Assembly (NCBI GenBank): GCA_026932145.1
Contig: JAIXKT010000001.1
Location: 109,786 to 152,978, forward strand
From: Bacteroidia bacterium
GTDB lineage: Bacteria; Bacteroidota; Bacteroidia; J057; JAIXKT01
Reading direction: 5' to 3'
Length of the DNA: 43,193 nt
The notes beneath the pieces were generated by a model. It saw only the letters and a program-made list of their open reading frames with translations. It was not told the origin of the DNA and did not search any database. Below, one piece after another: positions 41,341 to 43,193 of the stretch. Position 1 is the stretch's first letter, and every line of letters begins with the position of its first letter. Both the position numbers and the translations under genes were made by a program.

Positions 41341-42108
41341 ATGCAGTACACAATTGCATTAAGGCTACCTTATCAGGAAAATATTACTTGCTGGAAAGTA
41401 AAAGAATGCTATATCCCTGCTGGTCAAGTTCAGAGAGGTCAATTACTGATTGAGTTTTGGGCATCAGATAAAACCATTTTTTCCTATTACTCACCCGAAG
41501 ATGGTTTTGTTCAACTATCATTATCTCAATCCGATAAATATTATTTTTCGGGTGAAAAAATCGGAGAGATTCGATATGATTCTATTGTTAGCGAATGTTT
41601 ATCAAGCCTATTACAGCCTATTCGGGCTTTTATCTTTGATATTGATGGTGTTTTAACCACCGGAGAAGTATTTGCTTTTGAGCAAGAAGCAGTTCGAGTG
41701 ATGAATATAAAAGACGGCTTCGCTATACAATTAGCCATTAAATTAGGATTTCAAGTTGCCATTATTTCTGGTGGAACTTCATCGGGAGTACATAAACGTT
41801 TGGCGGGCTTAGGCGTAGAGGACATTTTTATGAGCTGCCATAATAAGCTATCTGTCTATGAATCATATATTTCCCAAAAAGGGCTTAATGACGGCGACGT
41901 GCTGTACGTCGGAGATGATATGCCGGATATTGAAGTCTTAAAGCGTGTGGGCGTATCTACTTGCCCTGCAGATGCAGCTTGGGATATTCAGCAAATAGTA
42001 CGCTGGTTATTGCGCTCAAAAGCCGGAACCGGTTGCGCCCGCGAAGTAATTGAAGCTACATTACGTATTCAAAACCGTTGGTATGGAGACCAAAACTGCT
42101 ATTGGTAA
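41341..42108 (+). CDS. KdsC-type HAD phosphatase with N-terminal lipoyl-like domain
   Basis: 255 residues, ~85 longer than normal KdsC. Residues ~92-250 are a full KdsC: motif I FDIDGVLTTGEV (99-110, D100/D102), NIKDGFAIQ, motif II IISGG (141-145), Lys 169, motif IV GDDMPD (191-196), and the C-terminal TGCAREVIE. KdsC removes phosphate from KDO-8-phosphate for LPS inner core. Residues ~3-80 align with biotinyl/lipoyl domains: VKECYIPAGQVQRGQLLIEF, then SDKT with K44 at the lipoyl-lysine position, SPEDGFV and SGEKIGEI. No alternative start precedes motif I closely, so the extension is translated. The ATG lies 1 bp after the permease stop. The domain's function is unknown. Confidence 0.8.
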   Translation: MQYTIALRLPYQENITCWKVKECYIPAGQVQRGQLLIEFWASDKTIFSYYSPEDGFVQLSLSQSDKYYFSGEKIGEIRYDSIVSECLSSLLQPIRAFIFDIDGVLTTGEVFAFEQEAVRVMNIKDGFAIQLAIKLGFQVAIISGGTSSGVHKRLAGLGVEDIFMSCHNKLSVYESYISQKGLNDGDVLYVGDDMPDIEVLKRVGVSTCPADAAWDIQQIVRWLLRSKAGTGCAREVIEATLRIQNRWYGDQNCYW

Positions 42109-42808
42109 CACAGACATTACGCGTCCGTGTATCTACATAGTTCCTACCCCCATAGGAAACTTAGAGGATATTACTTTCCGAGCAATAAGGATATTGCAAG
42201 AAGCGGATGTAATCGCTGCTGAAGATACCCGCGTTACCCAGCATCTGCTAAAGCATTACGCCATCCAAACCCCGATGATCTCAATTCATGGCCATAATGA
42301 ACATAAAAAAGTCCCACAAATCCTACAAGATGTTCTGGATAAAAAGCTCATCTTAGCTGTAGTCTCAGATGCCGGCACTCCCGGAATATCAGATCCCGGT
42401 TTTTTGATAATCAGAGAGGCTATTTTAAAAAATATCCCCATAACTTGCTTGCCAGGCCCTACTGCCCTCATTCCCGCCTTAGTAATGAGCGGATTCCCCT
42501 GCGACAGATTTGTGTATGAAGGATTCTTGCCAGCCAAAAAAGGTCGAAAAAAAAGAATAGAACAACTAAAACACGAACACCGAACGATTGTGCTTTACGA
42601 ATCTGTTCACCGAATCTTCCAAACACTACAAGACTTGTCAGAAGAACTGGGAAAAGACTGTCCAGCAGCTATTTGCCGTGAAATCAGCAAAAAATTTGAA
42701 CAAGTGCTAAGAGGTACTCTTGAAGAACTAACCTCCTTAAACCAACACAAAATAGCCGAAAAAGGCGAATTTGTCATTATCCTCACTCCCCAACCCAAAA
42801 GCAGCTAA
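42083..42808 (+). CDS. rsmI: 16S rRNA (cytidine-1402-2'-O)-methyltransferase
   Basis: About 241 residues. RsmI methylates the ribose of C1402 in the ribosomal decoding centre. CIYIVPTPIGNLEDITFRAI (~16-35) is the family's signature start, with AAEDTRVTQHLL, VSDAGTPGISDPG (~103-115, the SAM-binding loop) and CLPGPTALIPALVMSG next. FVYEGFLPAKKGRKKRI, IVLYESVHRI and AICREISKKFEQVLRGTL complete the tetrapyrrole-methylase fold. The frame opens at a TTG at 42050, but the ATG at 42083 is better placed and overlaps the KdsC-type gene by 26 bp. It is the last gene of the run. Confidence 0.93.
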   Translation: METKTAIGNTDITRPCIYIVPTPIGNLEDITFRAIRILQEADVIAAEDTRVTQHLLKHYAIQTPMISIHGHNEHKKVPQILQDVLDKKLILAVVSDAGTPGISDPGFLIIREAILKNIPITCLPGPTALIPALVMSGFPCDRFVYEGFLPAKKGRKKRIEQLKHEHRTIVLYESVHRIFQTLQDLSEELGKDCPAAICREISKKFEQVLRGTLEELTSLNQHKIAEKGEFVIILTPQPKSS

Positions 42809-42957: not shown

Positions 42958-43193
42958 TTAATTAGACCAAAATGTATCTATATTCATATATTTGAATGTG
43001 CATATAGACATTACCATTTGAGGGCTTAGGTTCTTTATTGCTTGGTCAAAGAATGTGCTGATTTGTTCTAAATTTTCGAAATGTTTATTGGTAAACTTTC
43101 TTTTGATATGTTGCCATATCTTTTCAGCAGGGTTTAACTCTGGGCTGTAAGGAGGTAGAAATAATAGGAAGATATTTTTTGGAATGATTAGTT
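42958..43193 (-). CDS. IS630-family transposase, C-terminal fragment (cut by window edge)
   Basis: On the minus strand an open frame enters from the right edge and ends at TAA 42958-42960, giving 77 residues. It contains FLPPYSPELNPAEKIWQHIK, the C-terminal DDE-domain signature of IS630/Tc1-mariner transposases (usual form PPYSPxLNPIExxW), with the last catalytic Glu in the NPAE motif. The tail KNLSPQMVMSMC is also typical. The upstream two-thirds, with the first two Asp, are outside. I cannot locate the terminal inverted repeat or TA target duplication in the 150 bp between rsmI and the stop, nor tell whether the element is intact. Confidence 0.85.
   Translation of the reverse strand, partial: LIIPKNIFLLFLPPYSPELNPAEKIWQHIKRKFTNKHFENLEQISTFFDQAIKNLSPQMVMSICTFKYMNIDTFWSN

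Follow-up and report, generated by a model that had tools for sequence, protein, structure and literature searches.

Near the end of the analysed stretch of DNA from a Bacteroidetes-type bacterium (43,193 nucleotides, the window) lies a gene in which a lipoyl-like N-terminal domain and a KdsC-family phosphatase are encoded in a single frame. The features of this gene are as follows:

41341 to 42108, plus strand: fused gene for a lipoyl-like N-terminal domain and a KdsC-family phosphatase, one frame of 255 amino acids
41341 to 41580, plus strand: lipoyl-like (barrel-sandwich hybrid) domain, residues 1-80, based on an E2-lipoyl profile, an E2-guided AlphaFold2 model and coding-like codon usage
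41464 to 41475, plus strand: S42-D43-K44-T45 hairpin, with K44 at the position of the lipoyl lysine as judged by glycine spacing
41581 to 41613, plus strand: short linker, residues 81-91, a low-confidence helix in the AlphaFold2 model
41614 to 42105, plus strand: KdsC-family HAD phosphatase, residues 92-255 (TIGR01670, 120 bits; PDB 4hgn, E 2.3e-40; motifs)

The genes in the neighborhood encode TerC, shikimate kinase, FloA, MurD and RsmI, none of which suggests a relation to lipoate. The gene immediately upstream resembles an ABC-2-type permease by eye and had no NCBIfam match at E ≤ 1e-10. The RsmI frame (TIGR00096; window positions 42050-42808, plus strand) extends into the fused gene at its 3' end, and from its likely ATG at 42086 the overlap amounts to 23 bp. 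Positions 42960-43193 of the window (minus strand) encode the C-terminal part of a transposase-like protein with a LPPYSPELNPAEKIWQHIK motif, which runs off the window edge and which we take to be IS630-like.

The ATG of the fused gene is located 1 bp past the stop codon of the upstream gene. After codon 1, no in-frame ATG, GTG or TTG is present before codon 120, which is situated beyond the catalytic aspartates (FDIDG, residues 99-103) of a phosphatase that starts around residue 92. Hence, with these standard start codons the phosphatase can be made only as a fusion, i.e. the fusion is obligatory. Residues 1-92 are encoded with a codon usage like that of the neighboring genes, and only 4 of 5,000 shuffles reached its score. 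The coordinates, the frame and the residues that an earlier note on this DNA had picked out as a lipoyl-domain pattern (V20-x-E22, G28, G33-Q34, S42-D43-K44-T45, S51-P52-x-D54-G55 and G71-E-K-I-G-E-I77) were all found to be correct.

The phosphatase half matched TIGR01670 over residues 95-244 with 120.1 bits (cut-off 106.95), and its HAD motifs are intact (FDIDG at 99, ISGG at 142, NK at 168, GDD at 191 and G-x-G-x-ARE at 229); the KdsC part is complete, as described in the earlier note. The KdsC equivalog model PRK09484 (NF007019) yielded 105.8 bits, under its cut-off of 208, and the phosphatase is therefore filed at the TIGR01670 subfamily level only. In a search of the PDB, the nearest solved protein was 4hgn (141.7 bits, E 2.3e-40), named 2-keto-3-deoxy-D-manno-octulosonate 8-phosphate phosphohydrolase, whereas entries named acylneuraminate cytidylyltransferase reached 72-74 bits. 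With the KdsC/YrbI Kdo-8-phosphate phosphatases (TIGR01670; PDB 4hgn, 2r8e) the fused protein shares the HAD core, the catalytic motifs and the C-terminal G-x-G-x-R-E tail, but it carries about 90 additional N-terminal residues. It is the sole KdsC-like match in its own genome, and KdsA and KdsB are encoded elsewhere in that genome. From family membership, the likeness to 4hgn, the single copy and the presence of kdsA and kdsB, we predict that the phosphatase half most likely catalyzes the ordinary KdsC reaction from Kdo-8-P to Kdo, a sugar of the outer membrane.

The N-terminal domain is not recognized by the curated families. A Pfam scan of residues 1-93 gave no match, a search of the genome with PF00364 up to E 10 gave none at this place, and the best NCBIfam hits were E2 models with E values of 0.014 and 0.29, below the curated family thresholds. 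When residues 1-93 were compared with the PDB by phmmer, no lipoyl domain was retrieved and only chance-level matches to interferon receptors appeared. We built a profile from 42 E2 lipoyl domains of the same genome and its relatives. Against this profile the N-terminal domain scored 13.3 bits, while the best of 20,000 composition-matched shuffles reached 6.3. As a control with real proteins, the profile was run against 1,891 ORFs from the collected loci. All entries above the N-terminal domain were AccB, PYC, E2 or HlyD/RND-type adaptor proteins, as identified from the PF00364 search that had fetched them and from reading of the sequences. Below it, one further adaptor followed with 11.8 bits and then nothing above 7.0 bits. 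The claimed lipoyl-like pattern thus exceeds chance, although it stays below curated thresholds, and together with the TIGR01670 match this score supports the proposed fusion of a lipoyl-like domain with a complete KdsC phosphatase. Profiles of the biotinyl kind did not match (AccB, -1.1 bits; PYC, 0.7 bits). Among the individual E2 subfamilies, the E2o profile gave 9.5 bits against 8.4 for the best shuffle, and the PDH and BCK profiles did no better than their best shuffles. Since biotinyl profiles failed to match and the single E2 subfamily profiles were weak, the signal is one shared with E2 lipoyl domains in general. Of the two kinds left side by side in the earlier note, biotinyl or lipoyl-like, the E2/lipoyl kind is consequently favored.

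In an ungapped comparison anchored on lysine residues, K44 was the best anchor, and its score was reached by 7 of 20,000 shuffles. Glycine is present at positions -16 (G28), +11 (G55) and +27 (G71) relative to K44, and occupies these positions in 42, 42 and 31 of the 42 E2 domains, respectively. In the same alignment the A-S-D-K motif agrees with the E2 domains, and residues V30 to E38 are out of register by one, as are the Val/Ile conserved at -13 and the Glu conserved at -5. The shift implies that a residue has been lost near G28 and another gained ahead of K44. MAFFT instead opened a gap of four residues, thereby pairing W18 with the conserved tryptophan, and the extra residue in front of the DK motif was kept in both alignments. 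Taken together, the N-terminal domain shares length, DK motif, glycine spacing, S-P-x-D-G and a predicted eight-strand topology with the E2 lipoyl domains of 2-oxoacid dehydrogenases (PF00364; PDB 1ghj). It differs from them in its scores below curated thresholds, in the strand before K44 being out of register, in lacking the usual G-E-S loop and in its partner enzyme, which is a phosphatase here and an acyltransferase in E2. The domain probably derives from a lipoyl domain of the E2 type that was recruited to the phosphatase.

Structure prediction, which the earlier note had proposed for this region, gave a divided answer. Submitted to AlphaFold2 as a single sequence, the domain yielded a pLDDT of 35 and no meaningful fold match. 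When 36 E2 lipoyl sequences were provided as the alignment, a model with eight strands and a pLDDT of 76 was obtained, and the best matches in a fold search with this model were lipoyl/biotinyl domains, first of all 1ghj (Z 9.8, rmsd 2.1 over 78 residues). Because lipoyl sequences had been supplied, which makes the procedure partly circular, the model demonstrates compatibility with the fold and is no independent proof of it; a lipoyl fold is likely but not proven. The structural matches also included domains of CphZ (8ein) and EutE (6twm). These hydrolases of the succinylglutamate desuccinylase/aspartoacylase family share the predicted barrel-sandwich fold, used as an appendage to an enzyme, the likeness being one of predicted structure. 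In CphZ and EutE the domain is found in the C-terminal part (matched residues 298-373 and 250-329, respectively), whereas it is N-terminal here. The barrel-sandwich domains of CphZ and EutE are not known to be modified.

Could K44 of the fused protein be modified? Lipoylation of this residue by LipB and LipA, with the lipoyl arm acting as a redox sensor or docking a component of a 2-oxoacid dehydrogenase and so linking Kdo synthesis to central metabolism, is the alternative that survives best, even though we regard it as unlikely. It is in keeping with the conserved glycines, with the presence of lipA and lipB in the genome (no TIGR00545 match for LplA was found there) and with the sequence A41-S42-D43-K44-T45, which two relatives from the same order (L133 and L135) share residue for residue in the lipoyl hairpin of E2o. 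However, in the E2-guided model the turn is formed by S42-D43 and K44 is already part of the next strand. This turn and the extra residue between E38 and K44 would displace the lysine, which renders lipoylation doubtful. The conserved Val/Ile and Glu residues are out of register as well, and we know of no chemistry that links lipoate with Kdo-8-P hydrolysis. Mutants in which the lysine was moved by one residue from the tip of the turn were not lipoylated (PMC6270654). The suggestion in the earlier note that the domain might carry a lipoyl or biotin group is therefore somewhat disfavored, and biotinylation of K44 is unlikely. If K44 were lipoylated and the lipoyl arm served to tether the Kdo-8-P phosphatase or to regulate it, the protein would represent a new class of lipoylated proteins, connecting 2-oxoacid dehydrogenases or the redox state to LPS synthesis, a prospect that we consider distinctly unlikely. 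To our knowledge, the list of lipoylated proteins in bacteria is very short, and the lipoyl-like domains of other proteins usually serve as structural modules without modification.

The explanation that we favor, with reasonable though by no means full confidence, is that the sole KdsC of this organism has acquired a barrel-sandwich domain of the lipoyl/biotinyl type and performs the ordinary KdsC step, the added domain being an unmodified accessory or docking module. The phosphatase half would convert Kdo-8-P to Kdo between the reactions of KdsA and KdsB, and the N-terminal domains, working without modification, would surround a KdsC oligomer and supply it with accessory or docking surfaces. 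Tethering of the phosphatase to a partner and substrate channelling, both raised in the earlier note, are conjectural roles. Among LPS enzymes, the obligatory coupling of a lipoyl-like domain with the sole Kdo-8-P phosphatase would constitute a new architecture and, if the domain is indeed unmodified, a further case in which the barrel-sandwich fold has been reused as an enzyme appendage.

It may be asked whether the first 90 residues form a different small beta domain whose likeness to lipoyl domains is convergent or coincidental. The missing match to curated families, the failure of single-sequence folding, the phmmer search of the PDB devoid of lipoyl domains and the weak subfamily profiles would all fit this idea, but none of the 20,000 shuffles reached the pooled E2 score, the ORF control placed the domain among barrel-sandwich proteins of the HlyD type and above all other ORFs, and the DK motif and the spacing of the three glycines match those of E2 lipoyl domains. 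We judge this explanation quite improbable.

Searches for the same architecture detected the fusion in no other genome, neither among 395 genomes of the class nor in a GTDB scan. In the class genomes no convincing relative of the N-terminal domain was found, and two matches at chance level (E 0.005 and 0.009, in frames of 193 and 728 amino acids) were looked at briefly. None was detected in 22 genomes of the order or in viral contigs, and none of the 16 KdsC loci from the GTDB scan convincingly covered the N-terminal domain. One of the candidates, L006, was discarded; its match from residue 56 onward reaches back beyond the probable start of the gene. Open frames other than the fused gene did not exceed 232 amino acids, and most had 165-215, among the roughly 150 top-scoring KdsC matches that were listed for the 395 class genomes. 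In a literature search, no report combining a lipoyl domain with Kdo-8-P phosphatase was found among open-licence papers. The fusion is a new architecture made from known parts and found in one genome. That genome is the sole representative of its taxonomic family in our data, so the fusion may be family-wide. Its occurrence in one genome would also agree with an artefact of assembly or sequencing, or with readthrough of non-coding DNA ahead of an ordinary KdsC, but this is very improbable in view of the neighbor-like codon usage, the lack of an in-frame start until past the catalytic aspartates, the frame beginning 1 bp after the upstream stop and the significant domain resemblance.

Other front domains were found on KdsC-like proteins of relatives:

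L066, 608-1315, minus strand: HTH_3 and KdsC-like HAD, HTH confirmed by Pfam
L073, 64-792: HTH_3 and KdsC-like HAD, HTH confirmed by Pfam
L076, 530-1276, minus strand: HTH_3 and KdsC-like HAD, HTH confirmed by Pfam
L036, 1486-2799, minus strand: KdsC behind a Rossmann/DUF2520 protein, one frame of 438 amino acids
L084, 1-999: IspD-like cytidylyltransferase and KdsC-like HAD, one frame

Like the protein described here, these fusions contain a KdsC-type HAD core, and they differ from it in the front domain; their matches to KdsC are weaker, and none contains a lipoyl-like domain. Their existence suggests that the HAD core readily gains front domains. KdsC-like frames of about 240 amino acids in relatives had been considered as candidates for sharing the lipoyl-like domain and were dropped, as all three that were scanned have a helix-turn-helix. 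Such KdsC-like HAD proteins of about 235-270 amino acids with an N-terminal Cro/C1-type helix-turn-helix occur mostly within the same order. Frames similar to L066, L073 and L076 were seen in L067, L077, L080, L081 and L083, and these proteins are possibly DNA-binding phosphatases.
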